Source: Alphaproteobacteria bacterium (lineage in GTDB: Bacteria; Pseudomonadota; Alphaproteobacteria; CAAHEQ01; UBA3637). Taken from it: a DNA stretch of 43,135 nucleotides. The notes beneath the pieces were generated by a model. It worked only from the letters and a program-made list of their open reading frames with translations, ran no database searches and was not told the origin of the DNA. Each line of letters starts with the position of its first letter. Positions within the stretch are counted from its first letter, which is position 1. The position numbers were made by a program, and so were the translations under genes. Positions 2,944-43,088 of the stretch are shown one piece after another. The stretch spans positions 1 to 43,135 of the forward strand of contig JAFTEW010000015.1 in assembly GCA_017453485.1 (NCBI GenBank). The letters run 5' to 3'.

Positions 2944-5900
2944 ATGTATCGTAAAATAATTGCTTTTGGTTTAATGACAAGTTTGCTTTTCGGATTATCA
3001 AACGGGACGTATGCCGCTGGCTCGGCTGTTGGATTATCCCCGCGGAAGGCTATCTATCAGGCGGCGCGCACCGGGAATGTTAAGGCTGTTGAAAATTTGG
3101 TGCGGCAGGGATTTTCTTTGGAAACAGTTGATTCAAACGGAAATACGGCCCTATGTGCTTCGGTGGCGTTGAAAGATGTGACCGCCTATAATACATTGAT
3201 TGCCGCCGGGGCAGATCCGAATGCCGATTGTATGAAGAATATGTCGGCCGCCCGGAAAGAGCGTTTCTGTGCCGGTAGGGGAATTGCCGATCGGTCCATC
3301 TGTACCGGGGTGGCTAAATCAGGTATTATCACGTCCAATATTTGGGCTGACGCGGCCGGGGTTGCCGTTTTGGGGACAGTTGCTGTGGCGGCTGCCAGCG
3401 GCGGTGGCGGTGGTGGCGGCAGCAGTGGTGGTGGAGACGACGGCGGGTCTGGCGGCGGGTCCGATTCGGGGCTATGCGCCAATGTTGATTGCGGATTTCA
3501 CGGAAACTGTGATTCAAATACGGGAACCTGTATTTGTGAAACGGGTTGGTCGGGTACTTATTGTACCGAACAGGAAGACGTGACACCGTCTTGTGATGAT
3601 GTGGATTGCGGGGACCATGGGACCTGTAATGCCGGTGCTTGTATCTGTGCCGACGGGTGGAGTGGCTCAACTTGTAATATCGCGCCGGATGCTTGTTATA
3701 ATGTAAGTTGCGGGGCACATGGTTCCTGCTCAAACGGAACGTGTAGTTGTCGGGACGGATTTTCGGGAACAAATTGTGAAGTGCCGCCGACAACCGAATT
3801 AACGGAAGAAACGACAATGGATGAACAAAGTGGCGTTCCCTGCGATGATGGTGAAGTTATCAATGGTGTGTGTACGAAACCGGTCCAATCGGGTAATGAT
3901 GAGCATGCAGTCGTTGAACAAAATGATCCGGATGCAACGACGAATCCTCTGTTTTTGGCTGAATTCGGCGGAAATGTCGAAAATACGGGTGACGTGGAAC
4001 GCTCCGGCTCATCGACCGAACAATTTGTTGGTATGTGGGCGAACGGTGTTGGGGCGGATGCTTTGTCGCCTGGTGGTTCAACCGTCGATTTGACAAAGGC
4101 GTCAAAAGCCACAAACAGCGGGACCCTGACATTGACGGAAGAAACGGTTGATGATAAAGGAATTATCGGAATGAAAGCCACATCGGCCGGCACCATTAAA
4201 AATACCGGAACAATTGATTTGACGACAAAATCTCCGAATCAGTCTGCGGCCATGCTGGCTAAGGGAAAGGGATTGGCTGTTGAAAATCAGGGGATCATTA
4301 ACCTGAATCCGACAGAATCTTCTTGGGACATGACAGGGATGTCTGGGGCCGATCGAAATGTATTGAATGATACGGACGGGCAAATCAATATCGTGATGGG
4401 TCAAAAAACATCGGGATTAACGACCGAAAAAGGTTCGGTTGTCGGCATGACCGGTGATTTTGTTTTGAATCGCGGCACGATCACGGCCAAAGTTGATGAT
4501 ACCGTTCCGGAGGGCCAAACGGTTCAAACAGATTTGCGCTTGATAGAAGCCGGTCCGAATGGCATGGCTTTCAATGACGGCACCATCAATTTGGATATTA
4601 CGAATATGATGTTTAATGTGTCGGCTTTGGCGCCGTCCGGTGGGGCGTCGGGGGCAAAGTTGACCAACAACGGCACGATGAATGTGACGGGGGATTTGTA
4701 TTATGATTCCGCGTTGAGTAAACAGGTCTACCTGATGGGGACTGCGGATACATCTTCTACATTATTGAATGAAGGTTTGATTGATGTGGATATTGATGTG
4801 TCTAAGGGCGGCTTGTTTGGAGTGATGAACGGCAATGGCGGTACACAAACCAATAATAAGGATATTAAGGTCAAATTGACTTCCGTCGGGGCAACGGATG
4901 GCTTCTATGCATCTGTGTTTGATTCGCAGGCCGGTTCACAAGTAAATAACGGGACAGTTGATGTGACGTTTGCTCCGGGTGTAGCAAATTCAAGTTCCTT
5001 CTTTACTGTTATGGATTATCATGGTGGTGAAGGCGGAGTTGATCAAACCAATAACGGTTTGATTCGAATGACATCCGAAATGGACGGCCTGTCGGTTGTT
5101 GCCATGACCGGGGCCGGAGCAAAAGTAAACGGTGCCGAAGGAGAAATTCACCTGATCAGCAGCGCAAACAATTCTTCTTTGGCTGCAATCGGCGGTGGTG
5201 GCGGATCGGCCAATAATAGCGGTAAGGTCTTCTTGGAACACAATGGCGGTAGCGGCAGTATTGTCGGCTTTGGTGGCGCCAATGAAGGTAAAATCTATAT
5301 CCGGGCCAATGATATGACGGGAATGACGGGTATTAACGGTGCTTCCATCGCACCGGGTGGGGCTACCGTTGATGACAGCAAAGGGTTGATTGATATTAAA
5401 CTGACGGGAAGCACGTATGGTGCTGTGGCAGGGGCTTCCGTCGCCGGTGCCGGAACCCTTAATAATGCCAATAAAGTAAGTATTGAAGCGAAGGATTCTT
5501 TGCGTGCCGGTGATTTAATGGCTGTGGGTATGACGGTCCTTGAAGGTGCTCAACTCAATCGGGGGGGCGATACGATTATAAATGTGAACGGTTCTACCTC
5601 CGGCAAAACGCAAATTTGGGGTCTGCAATCTGAAAATGCTCATATTACGAATAACGGGGATATCCGTATCACATCCGATTTAACGAACAGTAACCAACAT
5701 GTTGTTATCGGTATGGAATCGCAGGATACCCAGCGTTCAGAATTAACGCAGTATAAAGCGATTAACAATAACCGGATTCGAATTAATGTGACCGGTGGTA
5801 AAAGCAGCATACATCGGGACGGTATCCCGTTTGATGTGGTCGGTATGGCGACGAATTCTTATGCTGAAAACAGTGGCACCGGGGTTATTTCAATCAATGT

Positions 5901-7626
5901 TTCCGGTGATGCCAAAGCGGCCGGTATGGTGGCCTATGATGCCGGTCAGATTGTGAATAAGGGAACGATTATCTTTACCGGTAATGCCGATAATTTTACG
6001 CCGTTTTACGGGACGGGTCTTCGGAACATTGATTTGGCTTGGGATAAAGACGGTAATGTCATTAAAAAGACAACTGTTTATGCGTCGGTTTATAATGGCG
6101 GCGATATCATTATCAACAATATGCCGATTAGCATAACCAATGCCCAAGGTCACGGTTATGAAGGCAGCGGTTGGGCCAGACGAACCTATGACTGGGTTGA
6201 AAACGATGAAGAAGGCAATCCGGTGAACGATTTTGTTTTAAATAAGGATGAAACAAATGTTGATTCATTTACGGAATACAATACGCTCGGCACGCCGTTC
6301 GCCAATGTGGAAGATGTGACGACTCCCTCCTTTATTTTAAATAACGGTGTTCGGTATGTGTCTGAACAAAACGGAACATTGAATGCAAACGGATCTCACC
6401 TGATCGGGGAAATTACGGCTGGTACGTCATTAGCGTTAAACGGCAATAAGGATATCTATATCGGTGATGGTAAAGGGTCCGGAGCCGTAATCGGTGACGG
6501 GGATTTTTCGGATTTGACCTTTGTCTCTGATTCGCCCCTGTTTACCGCAGGATATCGCATCAATGATAAAAACAGTAACGGACTGGATATCGTTCTGACG
6601 CGTCGGTCTTTTGCCGATGTTGTATCGGATGCCTCTTTGGCCGATTATTTAGAGCGGAACTATGTAGCCGGATATAATGAATCATTCTTTAATGAATTGA
6701 AGTCGTTTAATAATCGGCAGAGTTTGATGGCCGGACTCAATCAAATGACCGGTCGAGATATGTTGTCACGCTTTAATTTTGAAGATATGACAATGATTCG
6801 GGAATTAAATGTTGATATGAACAATCAACTGTTCCGTCGTCCGGAAGCGGCCTTTGCAACGGCGGGTATTGTTAAGCCGATGGCATTTAGTGGAGATATC
6901 GGTTCGGAAAGCCGGTATAGTCTGTTTAATAAACGGCGGGGAAATTTATCCGTCGGCTTCGGGGTAGCATTTACCGATGTCCGATCCGATGATACACATA
7001 ACAGTAATGACCGGAAGGAAACAATGTATCAATTGGTTGTTCCGGTTGGCTATCGTGCTGCTGGGATGCACTTTATTACATCGCCGCGTATCGGATATGC
7101 CAGAGGTAATTATGACCGTGTCGGCTTTAATAATCAATCCTATGACGGAACGATGGAAAAGCGAATTTTCGGCTTGATGAATGAAGCGCGTTATCCGATG
7201 ACTTTTGGGGATTGGACGGTTGAACCGGCGGCTGAATTGAATGTGTTGGGGATGAGTCAACGGGGAAAAGAAGACCGGAAAGATTACAGCCTGAATATTA
7301 AGTCGCAGAACACCTATTCTGTGGAAAGTGGAATCGGATTATATCTGACACGGGCCGAAGAATTAAGCAAGGATTCTCGTGTTAAGTTGACGGCCGGCGT
7401 CGCAGGATACCATGAATTTGCCGATCCGTATCGGTTGGATGTCGGGATGAACGGATTGATGGGAACATTCCGGCTTCGTGATGAAAAGCGGTCCGATAAT
7501 CGGGGAATCATTCGGTTAGGACTGGATTATGATTATCGGGATTTGTCGGTTTACGGGTCCTTTATCTCTTATATTGATCGGGAAGTTCGGTCTGCCGTTA
7601 AATCCGGTATGAAATTGAAATTTTAA
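2944..7626 (+). CDS. Large autotransporter with ankyrin-like and EGF-like modules
   Basis: This 1560-residue protein looks like a type V (autotransporter) surface protein. Residues 1-24 form a signal peptide. Residues about 33-100 look like two ankyrin repeats (AARTGNVKAVENLVRQG, then GNTALCASVALKD and LIAAGADPNADC). A hydrophobic stretch and a long Gly/Ser linker follow (about 135-175). Three EGF-like modules, each with six Cys and ending GWSGTYC, GWSGSTC or GFSGTNC, occupy about 177-282. Residues 300-1250 are a repetitive passenger rich in N-N-G-x-I/M and N-x-G-T motifs, typical of a beta-helix. The last ~270 residues look like an outer-membrane barrel and end in the aromatic residue F, as autotransporter barrels do. 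The start follows AAGGAG. The prepilin-like gene begins 16 nt after the stop. The function is probably adhesion or host contact, which is inference. Confidence 0.88.
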   Translation: MYRKIIAFGLMTSLLFGLSNGTYAAGSAVGLSPRKAIYQAARTGNVKAVENLVRQGFSLETVDSNGNTALCASVALKDVTAYNTLIAAGADPNADCMKNMSAARKERFCAGRGIADRSICTGVAKSGIITSNIWADAAGVAVLGTVAVAAASGGGGGGGSSGGGDDGGSGGGSDSGLCANVDCGFHGNCDSNTGTCICETGWSGTYCTEQEDVTPSCDDVDCGDHGTCNAGACICADGWSGSTCNIAPDACYNVSCGAHGSCSNGTCSCRDGFSGTNCEVPPTTELTEETTMDEQSGVPCDDGEVINGVCTKPVQSGNDEHAVVEQNDPDATTNPLFLAEFGGNVENTGDVERSGSSTEQFVGMWANGVGADALSPGGSTVDLTKASKATNSGTLTLTEETVDDKGIIGMKATSAGTIKNTGTIDLTTKSPNQSAAMLAKGKGLAVENQGIINLNPTESSWDMTGMSGADRNVLNDTDGQINIVMGQKTSGLTTEKGSVVGMTGDFVLNRGTITAKVDDTVPEGQTVQTDLRLIEAGPNGMAFNDGTINLDITNMMFNVSALAPSGGASGAKLTNNGTMNVTGDLYYDSALSKQVYLMGTADTSSTLLNEGLIDVDIDVSKGGLFGVMNGNGGTQTNNKDIKVKLTSVGATDGFYASVFDSQAGSQVNNGTVDVTFAPGVANSSSFFTVMDYHGGEGGVDQTNNGLIRMTSEMDGLSVVAMTGAGAKVNGAEGEIHLISSANNSSLAAIGGGGGSANNSGKVFLEHNGGSGSIVGFGGANEGKIYIRANDMTGMTGINGASIAPGGATVDDSKGLIDIKLTGSTYGAVAGASVAGAGTLNNANKVSIEAKDSLRAGDLMAVGMTVLEGAQLNRGGDTIINVNGSTSGKTQIWGLQSENAHITNNGDIRITSDLTNSNQHVVIGMESQDTQRSELTQYKAINNNRIRINVTGGKSSIHRDGIPFDVVGMATNSYAENSGTGVISINVSGDAKAAGMVAYDAGQIVNKGTIIFTGNADNFTPFYGTGLRNIDLAWDKDGNVIKKTTVYASVYNGGDIIINNMPISITNAQGHGYEGSGWARRTYDWVENDEEGNPVNDFVLNKDETNVDSFTEYNTLGTPFANVEDVTTPSFILNNGVRYVSEQNGTLNANGSHLIGEITAGTSLALNGNKDIYIGDGKGSGAVIGDGDFSDLTFVSDSPLFTAGYRINDKNSNGLDIVLTRRSFADVVSDASLADYLERNYVAGYNESFFNELKSFNNRQSLMAGLNQMTGRDMLSRFNFEDMTMIRELNVDMNNQLFRRPEAAFATAGIVKPMAFSGDIGSESRYSLFNKRRGNLSVGFGVAFTDVRSDDTHNSNDRKETMYQLVVPVGYRAAGMHFITSPRIGYARGNYDRVGFNNQSYDGTMEKRIFGLMNEARYPMTFGDWTVEPAAELNVLGMSQRGKEDRKDYSLNIKSQNTYSVESGIGLYLTRAEELSKDSRVKLTAGVAGYHEFADPYRLDVGMNGLMGTFRLRDEKRSDNRGIIRLGLDYDYRDLSVYGSFISYIDREVRSAVKSGMKLKF

Positions 7627-7642: not shown

Positions 7643-9025
7643 ATGACAGGGAAGCAACGTTATAGTGAAAACGGTAGAAGCATTATTGAAATTTTGGGTG
7701 TCTTGGCTATTATGGGCATCTTAACAATCGGTGCGGTTGCTTCTTTTCGATATGGAATGACCAAAAGTCGGACCAATCATATGATTGAGGATATTCAAAC
7801 CGCCTATTTAGAAGAAAGCGGATTGGTTCAGCATCATACGTTGTGGACGCCGGTGCACTTTACGCCGTCCAGCGGCACAGATTTAACCACGTTGTTTGAT
7901 AAGGCCTCCCATGTATTTGTAAAGGCGGCCGATGTTGATAAACGTGTTTGTGAAATGTTGTTGCGCGTCGGCTCTGATTATCGGTTTTCCTTCTATGACT
8001 TAGCCGGTAATGAAAAGACGGAATGTATTGATTCGGATGAAATCATTGTAGCCTTTAACGGCAGTGGTGCGCCGGTTGAATGCGGTGGAGCGTCTGATTG
8101 CGGGGAAGGATTTGAAGGGTATTGTAACGGGCGCGGTCGGTGTAAAGCCTGTCAGGCTGATCAGGAAACAGATCCGGAAGTTGAAGGATGTTTTTGTAAA
8201 GATGCCAATCAAACAACATGCGTGAATCAGACGGACACTTGGTGTTGCCCGAACACACAGTTGTGCGGTGAACAAGTCGGGGAATGTAAGGATTCCGATG
8301 GTAAGTGTGCCTATTATTTTGGTGTCACCGAAGACGATGGTGTTGTTTACTATGGGGATTGCAGCTATACCTGTTCCAAAGGTGGTGCTTCAACAACATA
8401 TGGCGCGAATTGTAGCTATACGGTTGGCACAACCGGTGGTTTGACGGGATATACGGATGCCGCCGGAACGGCACGCAATTATGCTTTACCGGGGGTGCAA
8501 TCGGTTCAAGGTTGCCCCGGCAATCAGTATTGCGCTATTTTTTGGACGCAGCCCGAATGGTCGGCCGACGGCTCGACACCATCTATCGGGGCGGCCTCAA
8601 CCGGTGTTGTTTACGGTAAGTGTCAGATGATGAGCTCTTATGAATCGACCCCTGTGGCCAAGGATTCGATTGATTCAGGGCTGGTTCGTGTGAACAAGGG
8701 ATGTCCTGCCAATCAATACTGTGCTATTTTTTGGACACAGCCCGAATGGCCGCACGGGTCGGCGACACCGACGGTTGCGGCGGCCGCTATGGGAACGTTA
8801 TACGGTCGGTGCCAGATGATGAATTCTTATGAATCAACACCGTTATCCAAAACCAAAACGGGTGCGGCAGCCGGCTATCATGTGGAAAAAGAGTGCCCCG
8901 AGGTTCAATTCTGTTCATTGAATTGGGCGGATGAAAATTGCACGGCCGCCGGGGCAAGTATTACCGGGACGGTGTTGGGGGCTTGCTCAAATATGAATGT
9001 CAGGAACACAACCTGCCCATATTAA
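7643..9025 (+). CDS. Prepilin-like Cys-rich surface protein with three internal repeats
   Basis: The N-terminus has a short basic leader and then GRSIIEILGVLAIMGILTIG, which resembles the type IV pilin / type II pseudopilin cleavage site and hydrophobic helix. The first residue after the Gly is Arg rather than the usual Phe/Met, with Glu at +4. The rest of the 460-residue protein is Cys-rich. Residues about 150-215 form a knottin- or EGF-like cluster. The C-terminal third holds three related ~60-residue units: two near-identical copies with NQYCAIFWTQPEW and YGxCQMMxSYESTP, and a degenerate third (VQFCSLNWADENC). A second protein with the same N-terminal architecture is at the far end of the window. 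The gene lies 16 nt after the autotransporter and 20 nt before the DGR accessory gene, which suggests co-transcription. No copy of the DGR template is found in it. The role is unknown. Confidence 0.82.
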   Translation: MTGKQRYSENGRSIIEILGVLAIMGILTIGAVASFRYGMTKSRTNHMIEDIQTAYLEESGLVQHHTLWTPVHFTPSSGTDLTTLFDKASHVFVKAADVDKRVCEMLLRVGSDYRFSFYDLAGNEKTECIDSDEIIVAFNGSGAPVECGGASDCGEGFEGYCNGRGRCKACQADQETDPEVEGCFCKDANQTTCVNQTDTWCCPNTQLCGEQVGECKDSDGKCAYYFGVTEDDGVVYYGDCSYTCSKGGASTTYGANCSYTVGTTGGLTGYTDAAGTARNYALPGVQSVQGCPGNQYCAIFWTQPEWSADGSTPSIGAASTGVVYGKCQMMSSYESTPVAKDSIDSGLVRVNKGCPANQYCAIFWTQPEWPHGSATPTVAAAAMGTLYGRCQMMNSYESTPLSKTKTGAAAGYHVEKECPEVQFCSLNWADENCTAAGASITGTVLGACSNMNVRNTTCPY

Positions 9026-9663: not shown

Positions 9664-10938
9664 ATGGAACAAACAGATTTTTATGATTTATTAAGCGATT
9701 TAACACTGGATGAAGTATTTCGGGCTTATTTTGACTGTCGCCGACGTAAACGCCGCAGTCTGTCGTCATTGAAGTTTGAAGCCGAATATGAACGCAATCT
9801 GATGACATTATATCAGGAAATTGTTCATCGGATTTACCGTCCCACGGTGTCTCAGGCTTTTATTGTGAAAAAGCCCGTCATCCGTGAAGTTTTTGCGGCG
9901 CATTTTCGGGATCGGATTGTGCATCATTTGGTGATGGGACGTTTGATTCCGATTTTTGAGCGTATCTTTTCCGATTGTTCGTATAGTTGTCGCCTGAAAA
10001 AAGGGACACTTTACGGTATTCGTTCGGTTGCGGATATGATGCGGGAATGTTCCAACCTGTATCAACGGGATTGTTATGTCCTGCGGTTGGATATTCACGG
10101 TTTCTTTTTTCATATTGACAAGAACATTTTATATCGTAAAGTTAAGCAGGTAGTGGATTCTTGTTATTTTCATCGGAATAAGTCAACAATGATTTATCTG
10201 GTGCAACAGATATTGTCGGATAATCCCGTCACTCATTGCCATATCCGTGGGGATAAAGATGATTGGCAGGATTTGCCCAAAAATAAAAGTCTGTTTTTCA
10301 GCGGTTCTCATCGGGGATTACCGATCGGTAATTTAACCAGCCAGATTTTTGCGAATTTTTACCTGAATGATTTTGATCACTTTGTGGCCGGTTTGGACAC
10401 GAATTTATATTACGGGCGATATGTGGATGATTTGGTTTTAATTCATCCGGATGCCGATTATCTGATGCGGGTGCGGGAACAAATCCAAGTGTATCTGAAA
10501 ACGGAATTAGGATTGTCCTTGCATCCCCGAAAGGTATCATTACAACATTACGCCAAAGGATTTGCTTTCATCGGTGCGTATATCAAGCCCGGTTGCATTT
10601 ACCCGGGAAAGAGACTTCGGGTCTCTTTTTACCGTAAAATGACGGCATTAAACGGGGAATGGGCCCATACGCGACGACCGGCCGAGGATAAAGTTTTAAT
10701 TCAAAAAACATTATCCAGTATTAATTCCTATTTCGGTTTGTTAAAGTATTTCAATGCCTGGCGGGTTAAATTAAAAGGGTGGAATTTATTAAGCGAAGAA
10801 ATACGCGCCTGTTTTCAAACGGATGAAAGTTTGAAAAAAGTGTGGATAAAACCGGAGTTGAAAAGGGCACTATTGAAGCAAAGCCGGGATAAATTATTTG
10901 CACCGCTTCGCCGGCATCGCCGCCGTTATCGCCGATAG
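9664..10938 (+). CDS. DGR reverse transcriptase
   Basis: This 424-residue reverse transcriptase is related to group II intron RTs. It would copy the template-repeat RNA with adenine-directed errors, giving cDNA that replaces the variable repeat. Visible motifs are the early palm/finger block with RDRIVHHLVMGRLIPIFER (near residues 81-99), SYSCRLKKGT, the palm block VLRLDIHGFFFHID with the first catalytic Asp (near 143), GLPIGNLTSQIFANFYLND (218 onward; this G-x-P-I-G-N-x-T-S-Q form is characteristic of DGR RTs), the catalytic YVDD box at 253-256, and a primer-grip-like region near FAFIGAYIKPG. No maturase X or HNH endonuclease domain is present, against a group II intron. The ATG lies 17 bp after the template repeat, so template RNA and RT mRNA probably come from one transcript. 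The ribosome site is weak. Confidence 0.96.
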   Translation: MEQTDFYDLLSDLTLDEVFRAYFDCRRRKRRSLSSLKFEAEYERNLMTLYQEIVHRIYRPTVSQAFIVKKPVIREVFAAHFRDRIVHHLVMGRLIPIFERIFSDCSYSCRLKKGTLYGIRSVADMMRECSNLYQRDCYVLRLDIHGFFFHIDKNILYRKVKQVVDSCYFHRNKSTMIYLVQQILSDNPVTHCHIRGDKDDWQDLPKNKSLFFSGSHRGLPIGNLTSQIFANFYLNDFDHFVAGLDTNLYYGRYVDDLVLIHPDADYLMRVREQIQVYLKTELGLSLHPRKVSLQHYAKGFAFIGAYIKPGCIYPGKRLRVSFYRKMTALNGEWAHTRRPAEDKVLIQKTLSSINSYFGLLKYFNAWRVKLKGWNLLSEEIRACFQTDESLKKVWIKPELKRALLKQSRDKLFAPLRRHRRRYRR

Positions 10939-12175: not shown

Positions 12176-12466
12176 TCATCGGCATATATCGGGATACAAA
12201 TCATTCCAATCGGGATTCTGATTCTGTATTAACTTGATTTTCCAGTCGCGTTTCCAATGCTTTAATTGTTTCTCTCGCGCTATGGCACCACGTTCGTCTT
12301 GCCAAACCTCGTAATAGACCAACCGCCCAACATGGTATTTATCGGTAAAACCCTCAACGACATGGTTTCTATGTTCCCAAACCCGTTTGGACAGGTTGCC
12401 TGTTACACCGATATACAGGGTGCCGTTCGGTGCGCTGGCCATAATGTAAACATACATTTGTTTCAT
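12176..12466 (-). CDS. Small GIY-YIG nuclease domain protein (UPF0213/YhbQ-like)
   Basis: This 96-residue single-domain protein begins MKQMYVYIMASAPNGTLYIG, where Y-V-Y and Y-I-G are the two halves of the GIY-YIG signature. NLSKRVWEHRNH carries the catalytic Arg of the family, and AREKQLKHWKRDWKIKLI is the conserved helix with the catalytic Glu. Members such as YhbQ are small nucleases of uncertain function. No DNA-binding extension is present, unlike homing endonucleases. The gene is enclosed by REP-like palindromes on both sides and stands opposite to its neighbours. The ribosome site is weak, and a second ATG lies two codons in. The association with repeats suggests, but does not show, a role in their spread. 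Confidence 0.9.
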   Translation of the reverse strand: MKQMYVYIMASAPNGTLYIGVTGNLSKRVWEHRNHVVEGFTDKYHVGRLVYYEVWQDERGAIAREKQLKHWKRDWKIKLIQNQNPDWNDLYPDICR

Positions 12467-32259: not shown

Positions 32260-32817
32260 ATGCATCCGTGGCATGAGGTGGAATTGGATTTAAATCATCC
32301 GGATATTATTCCGGCGATTATTGAGGTGCCGAAAGGCTCACAAATTAAATATGAATTGGATAAACGCAGCGGTTTGGTTCGTGTGGATCGGATTTTATAC
32401 AGTGCCGTCCATTATCCGGCCAATTACGGTTTTATTCCGCAGACCTATTGTGATGATAACGATCCGTTGGATATTTTGGTCTTGGGACAGGAAAGTGTGG
32501 CGCCGCTGTCAATTATGCGGGCCAGGCCCATCGGTGTGATGAAAATGATTGATGCCGGGGAGGCCGATGATAAAATCATTGCCATTCATGAAGATGATAT
32601 GCAGTATAATTGCTATCATCACATTGATGATTTACCACCGCATACGCTGAAAACGTTGAAACGTTTCTTTGAAGACTATAAAATTTTGGAAAACAAAGAG
32701 GTCAAAATTGAATCCTTTTTGGGACCGGATAAAGCCAAAGAAATTTTGAAAAAAGCATTTGATCTTTACCAACAAAAAAAACAAACGTTAATAGGGTATC
32801 AAAAACATGGCATTTAG
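32260..32817 (+). CDS. ppa: Inorganic pyrophosphatase
   Basis: This soluble family I pyrophosphatase hydrolyses pyrophosphate and pulls biosynthetic reactions forward. It is 185 residues long with the signature [12 protein letters not shown] (metal-binding Asp residues), plus [16 protein letters not shown]. The ATG follows GGAAAGGTGTTAAGAAA. The HIT-family gene overlaps the end by 11 nt, suggesting translational coupling. Confidence 0.96.
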
Positions 32818-33226
32818 TTTAACGACGGGCTTAGCCCAAAAAGAATTTATTTGTGATTTACCGTTTTGTCGGGTCTTATTTGAAGATAATGCCGATTATC
32901 CGTGGATATTTTTGGTGCCGCGTAAAGAGAATGTGCGTAATATGTTGGATCTAACGACAGAAGAACGCCTAACCCTGATGCGGGAAATTGAAATTTGTGA
33001 GCGTGCTTTGGCAAACATTTACCATCCGACGCAGACCAATGTAGCCATGATCGGGAATAAAACACCCCAACTGCATGTACATATCATTTGCCGCTTTAAA
33101 GGGGATTTGTATTGGCCGGATACTGTTTGGGGAGGAAAATCCAGACCGTATTTGACAACCATTAAATATCAAACAATTGACCGAATTAAAAAGGAGATTT
33201 TGTCATGTCAAAAGTTGCTGTCCTAA
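32807..33226 (+). CDS. HIT-family hydrolase or nucleotide-binding protein
   Basis: Proteins of the histidine-triad superfamily hydrolyse nucleotide conjugates. The 139-residue sequence carries the triad as [11 protein letters not shown] (H-x-H-x-x-x form, with a third His position replaced by Cys or absent). The N-terminal part with [23 protein letters not shown] matches the usual HIT pattern. It overlaps ppa by 11 nt and kdsB by 22 nt. The substrate is unknown. Confidence 0.85.
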
Positions 33227-33978
33227 TTCCGACCCGTTTGAAATCAACCCGTTTACCGAATAAGCCTTTGGCCATGATTAATGGAAAACCGTTAATTCAA
33301 CATGTTTATGAACATGCGGTTGCCGTTCATCCGGCGGCTGACGTCTATATTGCTTCGGGCGATCAAGAGATTTTAGAGGTTGCTAAAGGATTTCAGGCAC
33401 AATGTATTTTGACGGATGCCTCACTGCCGTCGGGAACGGATCGGATTGCGGCGGCTTTAAAGGAAATTGATCCGGACGGGTCAAAATATGATATTGTCGT
33501 TAATTTCCAAGGAGATGGTATCAATGTAGATCCGGCACTGAACTTGCGATTGGTAGCATTGATGGAACAAACCGGTGCCGATATGGTGACGGTCGGTATG
33601 AAAATAACAAAACCGGAGGAAATCAATAATCCGAATTATGTTAAGATTGCAATGGGGCTAAGGGATGGCGAACAATTCGGACGAGCCCTCTATTTTTCCC
33701 GTTCACCCGTGCCATATAATAGAGATAAAGTAGCGGCATATGATTTTGCTTATTGGCATATCGGAATTTATGTTTATCGAGCCGCTGCCTTGAAAAAATT
33801 TGTTTCATCACCGGTCGGAGTATTGGAAAATATTGAAAAATTAGAGCAACTGCGGGCTTTGGAAAATGGGATGAGTATTTATGCCTTAATTGTCGATGAT
33901 ATTAAATTAGTGCCCCAGGCCCCTGCCGATATCAATACGCCGGAAGAATTGGCCGAAGCCCAAAAGTATATGCAATAA
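33205..33978 (+). CDS. kdsB: 3-deoxy-manno-octulosonate cytidylyltransferase
   Basis: KdsB activates Kdo as CMP-Kdo for the inner core of lipopolysaccharide. The 257-residue protein has the nucleotide-binding start [39 protein letters not shown] (the usual form is N-V-Q-G-D-E-P, so this is a variant), and HIGIYVYRAAALKKF with LEQLRALENG. Overlap with the HIT gene suggests an operon. This supports a Gram-negative envelope with LPS. Confidence 0.95.
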   Translation: MSKVAVLIPTRLKSTRLPNKPLAMINGKPLIQHVYEHAVAVHPAADVYIASGDQEILEVAKGFQAQCILTDASLPSGTDRIAAALKEIDPDGSKYDIVVNFQGDGINVDPALNLRLVALMEQTGADMVTVGMKITKPEEINNPNYVKIAMGLRDGEQFGRALYFSRSPVPYNRDKVAAYDFAYWHIGIYVYRAAALKKFVSSPVGVLENIEKLEQLRALENGMSIYALIVDDIKLVPQAPADINTPEELAEAQKYMQ

Positions 33979-34002
33979 TCAGAATAGGAATCGAGGGGAA
34001 AA

Positions 34003-34881
34003 ATGGATTCTGTTCGCATGTGGTTGCAAAACTATCTGGGGGTATCCGGTTTGACCGGCGCCAGTATTTTGTTCCAGTTTGCCATTATTATTGGTGTTCT
34101 TTACTTTTTTTATGCCCGTTTAATTAAGGATACACCGGTTGAGAAAACAGTTAAGGGGATTTTGTATTTCCTGATTTTGCTTTGGGTGGTATCGGAAGTA
34201 TTTTCTGTATTGCGCCTGCGTATTTTAAGCACCATGCTGCATAATCTGATTTTGCTGATTATTTTATCTTTTATGGTTATTTTTCAACCGGAATTGCGTC
34301 GGTTTATGGCCCGTTTGGGAAACAGTATTGAAGCATTACCGCAAGCACATAAGCATCAATTGAATAACAAAATGATTGATGTTTTGGTTCAAAGCATTAC
34401 CTATTGGCAGCAGCATAAAACGGGGGCCTTACTTGTCTTTGAAAATCAAGAGCCCGTATCGGCTGTCACAACAGGGGGGACAACCCTGAATGCTGTTTTG
34501 TCATCAGAGTTGTTGATTAATCTGTTTTTTATCAATACGCCGCTTCATGATGGGGCTGTTGTTATCAAGAATAATCAAGTTTTAAAGGCTGGTGTTATTT
34601 TGCCATTATCACATGATGCCACGCTTAATTGGAAATACGGCACACGTCATCGGGCGGCCATCGGGATGAGTGAAAGTACGGATTGTCTGGTTATTGTGGT
34701 ATCCGAAGAAACAGGTGACATTTCCTTCATAAAAGATGGGCATATTGATACATTCCATCTTTTAGATAAATTACCGGAGCGGTTGAATCAATTTTTAAGA
34801 CCGATTTTGAAAAAGCCGAAAACAGAAAAACTGTGGATGCGTATTAAAGAGTTGATAAAATTGGATTTATCTGGAAAATAA
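34003..34881 (+). CDS. cdaA: Diadenylate cyclase, CdaA type
   Basis: This 292-residue protein looks like a membrane-bound enzyme that makes cyclic di-AMP from two ATP. The N-terminal part has three hydrophobic spans (about 20-40, 52-70, 80-95). The DAC domain follows, with GALLVFENQ, the catalytic INTPLHDGAVVI (DGA at 183-185) and GTRHRAAIGMSESTDC (RHR at 215-217) followed by IVVSEETGDIS. These match the family's active-site motifs closely. CdaA is well known in Firmicutes, where it controls turgor and potassium uptake; it is less expected in an alphaproteobacterium. It follows kdsB by 24 nt. Neighbouring cdaR or glmM, typical partners in Firmicutes, are absent. The last 15 bp overlap the convergent glycosyltransferase gene. 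Confidence 0.94.
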   Translation: MDSVRMWLQNYLGVSGLTGASILFQFAIIIGVLYFFYARLIKDTPVEKTVKGILYFLILLWVVSEVFSVLRLRILSTMLHNLILLIILSFMVIFQPELRRFMARLGNSIEALPQAHKHQLNNKMIDVLVQSITYWQQHKTGALLVFENQEPVSAVTTGGTTLNAVLSSELLINLFFINTPLHDGAVVIKNNQVLKAGVILPLSHDATLNWKYGTRHRAAIGMSESTDCLVIVVSEETGDISFIKDGHIDTFHLLDKLPERLNQFLRPILKKPKTEKLWMRIKELIKLDLSGK

Positions 34882-35880
34882 TCTTTGGCATTGCATCCAA
34901 AACGGGATTTTGACCGGTAGTTTTGTTTGACTCAAAACGGGCCAGGTGTTGATATGCCCATAGAATAGGGCGTTTTTACATCTTTTGACCAGATATCTGG
35001 CGCAATCGGACTGAAATGCCGAATCCGGTGCAAAATGTGTTTTTTTGTTAGTCAGAACCAAAAGAGAGAGAATTTGTTCTGCTTTAATCAATGTCTGCTC
35101 GCTTTGAATCCGGCAACGACCCTTTAATACATAATTGTTTAAAATATCAGTTTGATCTGGTGTTAATTGAACCCCTAACCGATTTAAAAAAATGGTCCGA
35201 AGTTTTTGTTGCTCAGCGCGGATTTTATCCTGTTGTGTTTTAGATGTCATACCCGATGAAATCCGATAAAGATACAAAATATCAGGCAAGTTATGTAGTT
35301 GTGTATAGGGTGCACAATCAAAATATAATTTGCGGTCATTAACCGATATAAAACGGTTATCCCAACGGATATGATTTTCGGTCAAAACGGAGCGACGAAT
35401 GATTGTTGATGGATGTAAAATCGGGCACCGAAAAAACAATAAAGACCGAATTTCCGCATCTTCAATCGGATTAGATACAGGGCCGTTTTTAAACAGTTTC
35501 CCAAATCGGCGACAGGCTGTTCCACAGATGCCGACTTGCGGATGGAATTCCATAAAATCAACTTGTTTTTGAAACCGATCGGGGGTTGAAATATCATCGT
35601 GATCCATCAATGCGATATATTTGCCGCATGCTTGGTCCAATAAGAAATTATGACCATCGGCAATTCCCAATGATTTATTGTTTTTAAAATAACGAATACG
35701 GGGATCCGTATAGCCGGCCACAATTTTATCCAATTCGGTATTTTGGGGAGAATCATTTAAGATTAAAAATTCAAAATCGGTAAAAGTTTGACTTAAAATA
35801 CTATCTATGGCTTGCCGCAAATAAGTCGGATTAGTATTGTAAATCGGCATTGTGACGGATAAAAGCGGTGTGTTGCTCAT
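34867..35880 (-). CDS. Family 2 glycosyltransferase
   Basis: This 337-residue protein starts with LLSVTMPIYNTNPTYLRQAI, the usual GT2 nucleotide-binding strand, followed by LILNDSPQNTE and ALMDHDDISTPDRFQKQVD with the D-x-D-like metal site (DHDD). It likely adds a sugar to a surface polysaccharide or LPS. The C-terminal third is helical. The acceptor cannot be set. It lies 10 nt downstream of the histidine kinase gene on the same strand, so it may belong to the two-component operon. Its end overlaps cdaA by 15 bp. Confidence 0.9.
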   Translation of the reverse strand: MSNTPLLSVTMPIYNTNPTYLRQAIDSILSQTFTDFEFLILNDSPQNTELDKIVAGYTDPRIRYFKNNKSLGIADGHNFLLDQACGKYIALMDHDDISTPDRFQKQVDFMEFHPQVGICGTACRRFGKLFKNGPVSNPIEDAEIRSLLFFRCPILHPSTIIRRSVLTENHIRWDNRFISVNDRKLYFDCAPYTQLHNLPDILYLYRISSGMTSKTQQDKIRAEQQKLRTIFLNRLGVQLTPDQTDILNNYVLKGRCRIQSEQTLIKAEQILSLLVLTNKKTHFAPDSAFQSDCARYLVKRCKNALFYGHINTWPVLSQTKLPVKIPFWMQCQRLFSR

Positions 35881-42146: not shown

Positions 42147-43088
42147 TTATAAGTTAAAACATTGGTCAAATTTACTATAATCCCATACGTTTGAAGCGCA
42201 ACAAAATTCATTTTCATCATCCCAACGGTATCCGGCATCATTACAACATTTTTGATTTAATATTGTTGTACAACATTCTGTCCCCATTATCGTCCCGTCA
42301 GCACAACAAAAATTACCTGAATAATTCCAATTTCCTATTGATTCGCAACATCCAATATTACCACCGGCCCAATGCATCTCTAATAATTCACAGCATTTTT
42401 GACCCTCATTTCCGTCCGGAGAACAACATTTCCCTGTTCCGTCACATACAGAAGAACCATCAACACCGACACATGAGCTTCCTTCATTACTATAAGTAAT
42501 TACGCCATTTTTACATGATTGACAACCGTCATGAGTATCAAAATTTGCCGGGCAGACAGGTGTTTCGGGTTCGTCGTTTCCGGTGTCCTCTCCGGACTCC
42601 CCACCGGTTCCGTTCGTGGCCGATTTCTTTGTCAGCGTATTACTGAACACAAAGGCGATTTTATTGGCTTCCCCCTGATCACAGGAATCGGATTCACCGT
42701 TGATGGCAACGTCCTCCGGGACTTTCCAATCCATACCCTTAATCCGTTCACAAACCTCGTCATTCATATCCGATATGATAATGGAAAAGGTTCCGTCATT
42801 GTTCTGTGCCGTTTCTACGCCAAAGGCACCACTGATGGACAGGTTTCCATTCGCGTCTTTCCATTCCGGTAGAGTCAGGCTTCCTTGGGTCGTCAGTTCC
42901 GTGCTGGCTGTCACCGCCATCTGTGATACAGCATTCAAAATCGTATTGGCATTGGATTTGTTAATGGCATAGCGGTATCCGGCTATTCCCCCGATGGTCA
43001 ATACCCCCATAATGGCCAAGGTCCCCAGCATCTCTACCATACTCCGCCCCGATTGGGTGTTGATATATCTGATTTGTTTTTGTGACAT
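42147..43088 (-). CDS. Prepilin-like Cys-rich surface protein
   Basis: The N-terminus ends its basic leader at SGRSMVEMLGTLAIMGVLTI and continues into GGIAGYRYAINKSNANT, the same prepilin-like architecture as the protein at 7643-9025. Residues up to about 165 look like a pilin-type head with an acidic Gly/Glu linker (near 160-178). The rest of the 313 residues is Cys-rich with many C-C pairs (CCSPDGNEGQKCC, GCCES, ECCTTI, QKCCNDAG), probably disulphide-stabilised. No DGR variable repeat is visible in it. AAAGGAAC precedes the start. The gene is isolated by 163 bp from aas, a stretch in which no further feature was seen. Confidence 0.8.
   Translation of the reverse strand: MSQKQIRYINTQSGRSMVEMLGTLAIMGVLTIGGIAGYRYAINKSNANTILNAVSQMAVTASTELTTQGSLTLPEWKDANGNLSISGAFGVETAQNNDGTFSIIISDMNDEVCERIKGMDWKVPEDVAINGESDSCDQGEANKIAFVFSNTLTKKSATNGTGGESGEDTGNDEPETPVCPANFDTHDGCQSCKNGVITYSNEGSSCVGVDGSSVCDGTGKCCSPDGNEGQKCCELLEMHWAGGNIGCCESIGNWNYSGNFCCADGTIMGTECCTTILNQKCCNDAGYRWDDENEFCCASNVWDYSKFDQCFNL

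Follow-up and report, generated by a model that had tools for sequence, protein, structure and literature searches.

The membrane-bound cyclase CdaA of the Bacillota (also DacA; Bacillus subtilis, Listeria monocytogenes and Staphylococcus aureus) combines three membrane helices with a diadenylate cyclase (DAC) domain carrying DGA and RHR motifs, and the joining of ATP into c-di-AMP is its established chemistry. Its gene belongs to the CDA module (cdaA-cdaR-glmM), and the phosphodiesterases GdpP and PgpH are further partners in these bacteria. Photosynthetic cyanobacteria exhibit the same CdaA type within a lysA-cdaA-uppS operon, and passages of the report describing it treat the adjacency of lysA and cdaA as a trait particular to cyanobacteria (PMC5986932). 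According to a passage of a 2023 review, the alpha, beta and gamma classes of the proteobacteria are without a c-di-AMP signalling system (PMC10745434). Searches of an open-licence literature collection listed no contrary report of such a system, or of a DAC, in Alphaproteobacteria.

The window analysed here is an entire 43-kb contig (43,135 nucleotides) of a 1.17-Mb alphaproteobacterial genome assembled in 62 contigs, with an estimated completeness of 98.6% and contamination of 0.1%. It contains the ORF in question (cdaA, 34003 to 34881, forward strand, 292 aa), starting with ATG and having immediately 5' to it a GAGGGG (33993 to 33998, forward), the likely ribosome-binding site. The translated sequence matches the Pfam DAC domain (PF02457, E-value = 6.1e-41; residues 130-247, 34390 to 34743, forward) and scores 202.4 bits against the TIGR00159 model "diadenylate cyclase CdaA", above the curated cut-off of 188.8 bits, and it stays below the curated cut-offs of the DisA, CdaM and CdaS models (48.8/201, 102.8/225 and 137.6/225 bits, respectively). 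The PDB sequence match is 9g69, a nearly full-length CdaA (E-value = 2e-40, query residues 21-276). An AlphaFold model (10 sequences, mean pLDDT 73.9) exhibits three long N-terminal helices (residues 14-41, 47-69 and 73-93; 34042 to 34281, forward), overlapping hydrophobic stretches of the hydropathy profile. Its catalytic domain takes the CdaA fold: the best Foldseek matches in the PDB are CdaA crystal structures, including that of B. subtilis (9g0g, E-value = 3e-16, TM 0.87 by target length). The motifs H182-D183-G184-A185 (DGA at 34549 to 34557, forward) and G213-T214-R215-H216-R217 (RHR at 34645 to 34653, forward) are intact. In an alignment of 10 alphaproteobacterial DACs, H182, D183, G184 and G213 to R217 are invariant, including the whole RHR motif, and A185 is nearly so. 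The three membrane spans and two motifs (residues 183-185 and 215-217) listed in a preliminary description of this DNA are thus all confirmed. Judged from these matches, the protein is a genuine CdaA-type DAC, as had been proposed there, and it is the only DAC of the source genome. The DAC search also covered 14 control genomes, of which 11 matched; E. coli, which has no DAC, was not among these. Since automatic annotations of CdaA surely exist for such genomes, the protein itself is no novelty. The CdaA enzyme family is already known, and the interest lies in the lineage, the origin and the missing partners.

The protein thus resembles its Bacillota counterparts in helices, motifs and fold, and its surroundings differ. 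No glmM or cdaR was found near cdaA among the window genes scanned with Pfam, as the preliminary description had noted; this is unlike the CDA module of the Bacillota. The upstream neighbour is kdsB (CMP-Kdo synthetase, 33205 to 33978, forward, TIGR00466 above cut-off), separated from cdaA by 24 bases, and the two genes are probably on the same transcript. Further upstream on the same strand are a HIT-domain protein gene overlapping kdsB (32807 to 33226, forward; PF01230, E-value = 9.6e-13), the inorganic pyrophosphatase gene ppa (32260 to 32817, forward; PF00719, E-value = 2.2e-60) and virB4, encoding a VirB4-type ATPase. Downstream, a family 2 glycosyltransferase gene (34867 to 35880, reverse; PF00535, E-value = 5.6e-26) runs convergently with cdaA and overlaps it by 15 bases; it is followed by an EnvZ/OmpR-like pair and an Hpt protein gene on the other strand. 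The adjacency of kdsB and cdaA had been described as part of an envelope-related run. The adjacency is correct, but kdsB alone is plainly an envelope gene, and the surroundings of cdaA are not kept in relatives. The cdaA neighbourhoods of the six DAC-positive relatives in the family contain no kdsB match (0/6). In a genome of the same genus (G090), cdaA comes after a GtrII-like gene, and that gene adjoins counterparts of the EnvZ, OmpR and Hpt genes of the window. Five genomes from a different genus (G293, G410, G412, G415 and G416) have cdaA as the first gene of a run that also includes genes resembling sucC and sucD and a small gene of histidine-phosphotransferase type; the last has no Pfam match and is taken from its sequence to be chpT-like. 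Five DAC-negative genomes of that genus possess the sucC-sucD run without cdaA. There, dnaE precedes sucC in four genomes (by Pfam in G417, by inspection of the sequence in the others), and the contig of the fifth (G411) starts at the run. As no immediate neighbour of cdaA is kept in the relatives, the link to kdsB is incidental, and the kdsB run was dropped as a functional c-di-AMP operon. Low G+C content was likewise dropped as a sign of recent arrival, cdaA having 39.1% and the ppa, HIT and glycosyltransferase genes 38.6-40.5%.

The contig also carries rpoB, rpoC, nusG, secA, thrS and the genes of ribosomal proteins L1, L10 and L11, and is therefore chromosomal. It further encodes a secreted-looking protein of 1560 aa (2944 to 7626, forward) with Teneurin-type EGF repeats and a weak ankyrin similarity, of which a homologue with 63% identity lies near cdaA in G090 (L012:1045-5547). 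A reverse transcriptase gene (RVT_1, 9664 to 10938, forward) and a gene for a small GIY-YIG protein (12176 to 12466, reverse) lie in the stretch that separates the secA/EGF region from the nusG-rplK-rplA-rplJ-rpoBC run. Two proteins without Pfam match (7643 to 9025, forward; 42147 to 43088, reverse) exhibit a pilin-like start resembling GRSM(V/I)EM(L/M)G. Proteins with this start recur in both alphaproteobacterial families discussed below (L233:236-1507 and L018:5749-6213).

The distribution of cdaA is not that of an ordinary gene inherited vertically throughout close relatives, a possibility that the preliminary description had considered. DACs were found in 7 of the 43 genomes of the order, all from one family: two of four genomes in the same genus, five of eleven in one other genus, and none of the 28 genomes in the remaining 11 genera. 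Within a class-wide sample of 385 genomes, seven matched and six matches are real, three being from the same family and three from a second one (f69). The seventh (G081/L007) was rejected as a chance match: it scores under the cut-off, its frame contains a stop, and in the surrounding rpsF-like region other frames seem to be the true genes. Second-family DACs (L025, L043, L056 and others) exhibit 43-44% identity to the window protein; that of G188 (L018) is 97% identical to L056, a record titled "uncultured Alphaproteobacteria bacterium", from which the class shared by both families is taken to be Alphaproteobacteria. Among the matches listed, most second-family records come from gut samples according to their titles. 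Unlike the window gene, the second-family cdaA lies between an AsmA-like gene and a dnaN-like gene, the latter being, as we take it from its sequence, dnaN itself.

Within the family of the window organism, the DAC-positive genomes form groups of their own. In an unrooted tree of SucC and SucD, ten genomes of the second genus fall into two distinct clades (100/99 each), five with a DAC in one and five without in the other. An unrooted tree of EnvZ and OmpR pairs the two DAC carriers of the window organism's genus (99/99), and these two exhibit similar levels of identity in DAC (64%) and in EnvZ (68%). Such a pattern is in line with a single early gain followed by vertical descent in the family and by losses, and DAC transfer within the family may also have contributed.

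For the origin of these DACs, a search of named genomes with the single protein returned no relatives, and a search with an alignment returned at least 80 loci. Because the named-genome sample had been picked by patterns, we added DACs from 398 Pseudomonadota genomes and from 117 genomes of the phylum to which Vampirovibrio belongs. In a tree of 90 DACs, the own-family sequences, 12 second-family-like sequences and 25 sequences of the Vampirovibrionia clade (among the matches listed) form one clade of 44 rows (100/99). A second tree of 88 rows comprises 51 of the 90 first-tree rows, 9 of the 28 loci from Pseudomonadota and 28 of the 30 from Cyanobacteriota; the long branches L212 and L213 were left out, and L095, a long branch of the 90-DAC tree, is not among the rows reused. 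It again unites the own-family, second-family and Vampirovibrionia DACs in one clade (48 rows, 100/97), in which Vampirovibrio itself branches early. A further group of Cyanobacteriota DACs, taken as photosynthetic, are weakly placed neighbours of the Vampirovibrionia clade (82/46), and are distant in sequence from the window protein. One member of the clade (L026) is titled Heliobacteriaceae; given its lysA and its position inside Gastranaerophilales, this title is probably wrong. The phylogeny thus groups the alphaproteobacterial DACs with those of the Vampirovibrionia, which argues against vertical inheritance in the class. By these trees the Vampirovibrionia (Gastranaerophilales, Vampirovibrio) are the nearest known kin of the alphaproteobacterial sequences, and a horizontal gain of cdaA, in one or two transfers, appears most likely. 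The two alphaproteobacterial groups form one clade (83/58) in an intermediate tree including 22 of 58 new loci, and they do not in the 90- and 88-row trees; their union is compatible with the data (AU test, p=0.416). The own-family group is sister to the rest of the clade in the 90-DAC tree (among the matches listed), and is nested with weak support in both the 88-row tree and the intermediate one. The relationship to the Vampirovibrionia is based on about 300 alignment columns. With stem branches of 0.8 to 1.6 changes per column leading to each alphaproteobacterial group, long-branch effects may have played a part.

The direction of the transfer is suggested by gene order and by breadth of distribution. 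A tblastn search with a lysA sequence, in loci differing in size between groups, revealed lysA flanking cdaA in all 25 Vampirovibrionia-clade loci (among the matches listed) and in 26 of 30 loci of the Cyanobacteriota sample (short, about 3 kb). By the same search, no lysA was found beside cdaA in the seven own-family loci, nor, among the matches listed, in 12 second-family-like loci and 46 other GTDB loci, nor in 28 loci of other Pseudomonadota (short, about 3 kb). Directly downstream of lysA-cdaA, the Gastranaerophilales locus L022 carries a gene for a YitT/DUF2179 membrane protein (Pfam), and L029, L037, L040 and others exhibit genes of similar size; a passage on photosynthetic cyanobacteria places uppS there (PMC5986932). 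As DAC is widespread on the cyanobacterial side (113 of the 117 genomes) and lysA synteny is found there, we consider this side the more plausible donor; breadth and synteny are the two observations from which the direction from cyanobacteria to Alphaproteobacteria is inferred.

A transfer out of a third, unsampled lineage, or one running from Alphaproteobacteria into Vampirovibrionia, would agree with the long stems before both alphaproteobacterial groups and with the 90-DAC tree, in which own-family DACs fall outside the Vampirovibrionia and second-family sequences (97/83, among the matches listed). Such a history sits poorly with the near universal presence of DAC in the cyanobacterial phylum with lysA as neighbour, and with Vampirovibrio and Gastranaerophilales carrying cdaA in this lysA setting; we regard it as improbable, though it is the strongest of the competing accounts.

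The preliminary description had pointed to the c-di-AMP phosphodiesterases as genes to search for, and none of the known ones turned up in the family of the window organism. PgpH (PF07698) was found in none of 15 genomes (seven with and five without a DAC from this family, and three from the second family), nor in five further second-family-like genomes, unlike in the Vampirovibrionia, where five of the six genomes tested possess it. No GdpP/DhhP-type protein was found in the window organism's family: DHHA1 (PF02272) matched only in frames of RecJ size (585-623 aa) or AlaRS size (about 880-965 aa), these labels reflecting the frame lengths and the inspection of one such frame, and G415 (59% complete) exhibits no DHHA1 match. 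Unlike these, the three second-family genomes encode in addition a stand-alone DHH-DHHA1 protein, its frame being 317-332 aa long (L120, L121 and L122). The one at L120:775-1731 (318 aa, Pfam-supported) adjoins a recJ-like gene. The nearest solved structure to this second-family protein is the Thermotoga phosphodiesterase TM1595 (TmPDE, E-value = 1.4e-29), and it is a candidate c-di-AMP/pApA phosphodiesterase. A convincing CdaR (YbbR) is absent from the 17 genomes searched, four of which are Vampirovibrionia; a YbbR match in G000, the genome of the window, was rejected, being a partial match of 25-26 bits inside a YhdP-like protein. The window organism differs from the Bacillota in that no cdaR, GdpP or PgpH was found in its genome. 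No ydaO riboswitch was found within the window. As for receptors, RCK-domain proteins had been put forward, and one TrkA, with N and C (RCK_C) domains in two copies each, is indeed encoded (G000), but DAC-negative relatives also have TrkA. TrkA_C is found in four of seven DAC-positive genomes (one of the other three being only 59% complete), in all five DAC-negative genomes of the family and in none of three second-family genomes. TrkA thus does not track the synthase, occurring without it and missing from some of its carriers.

A working c-di-AMP system without a known hydrolase and CdaR would be unusual, and the absences observed, namely PgpH in 0 of 15 genomes, own-family DHH-DHHA1 proteins of RecJ and AlaRS size only and no true CdaR, are what could be said for a relict enzyme, or one with a changed product, taking no part in c-di-AMP signalling. 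We hold this to be unlikely, since all seven own-family DACs have intact frames with the DGA and RHR motifs (L013 alone having DGG), and the dN/dS ratios (NG86) lie at 0.06-0.15 in seven of seven pairs. These ratios are rough, as dS is high or saturated in most pairs; the pair with a dS of 0.25 gives 0.06. Such low ratios indicate a functional protein, and we consider the enzyme probably active.

A further account holds that the DAC is ancestral to proteobacteria, retained here and lost in most Alphaproteobacteria. Other Pseudomonadota do possess DACs: 83 of the 398 genomes matched (E-value<=0.001), 77 of them over the cut-off. Most are from one family (f188; for example L169, L176 and L180) and belong to a separate clade on a long stem. 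In the 88-row tree, nine of these other Pseudomonadota DACs form a distant clade of their own (100/99), and a tree uniting these nine representatives with both alphaproteobacterial groups fails the AU test (p=0.009). As only two families carry DAC in the class sample as well, retention from such an ancestor is very improbable. Contamination in assembly or binning, which a 62-contig draft and nearest DACs outside the class from another phylum might bring to mind, is hardly credible given the 0.1% estimate, the rpoB, rpoC, L1, L10, L11, secA and thrS genes on the same contig, the matches of contig genes to same-genus genomes (EGF-like protein 63%, EnvZ 63-68%, ThrS 88%), and the presence of cdaA in seven separate family assemblies in different settings.

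Taken together, we think it probable that the window gene encodes an active, membrane-anchored CdaA gained horizontally from a Vampirovibrionia-like lineage without lysA and PgpH. The three N-terminal helices would anchor it in the inner membrane, and the cytosolic DAC domains would pair face to face, converting two ATP into c-di-AMP and two pyrophosphates, a chemistry suggested by the intact motifs, the fold and the strong purifying selection. An ancestor of the family would have acquired cdaA from a non-photosynthetic cyanobacterial lineage of this kind, leaving lysA and PgpH behind, and the gene would then have evolved with its hosts in two subclades, being absent from the rest of the family. 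By analogy, c-di-AMP would most likely serve envelope integrity or the balance of potassium and osmolytes, and the two-RCK_C TrkA would be a candidate receptor in some carriers, not all. Turnover of c-di-AMP would then call for an enzyme belonging to neither the PgpH nor the DHH-DHHA1 family, or for loss through export and dilution.

Two families of Alphaproteobacteria thus exhibit an intact and selected synthase of cyanobacterial type in a class described as lacking the system. The presence of sister DAC-positive and DAC-negative clades within one family makes the origin of a pathway by transfer testable, and genes tracking the synthase could reveal a phosphodiesterase and receptors of unknown families. 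c-di-AMP is also a ligand of the host sensor STING, which adds to the interest in finding out which host-associated bacteria produce it. We suggest, tentatively and as the less likely case, that two alphaproteobacterial lineages with small genomes took the synthase from non-photosynthetic cyanobacteria without its partners, and that, at least in the family of the window organism, the hydrolase and receptors come from other families. If true, a c-di-AMP circuit would have been built independently around a transferred synthase.
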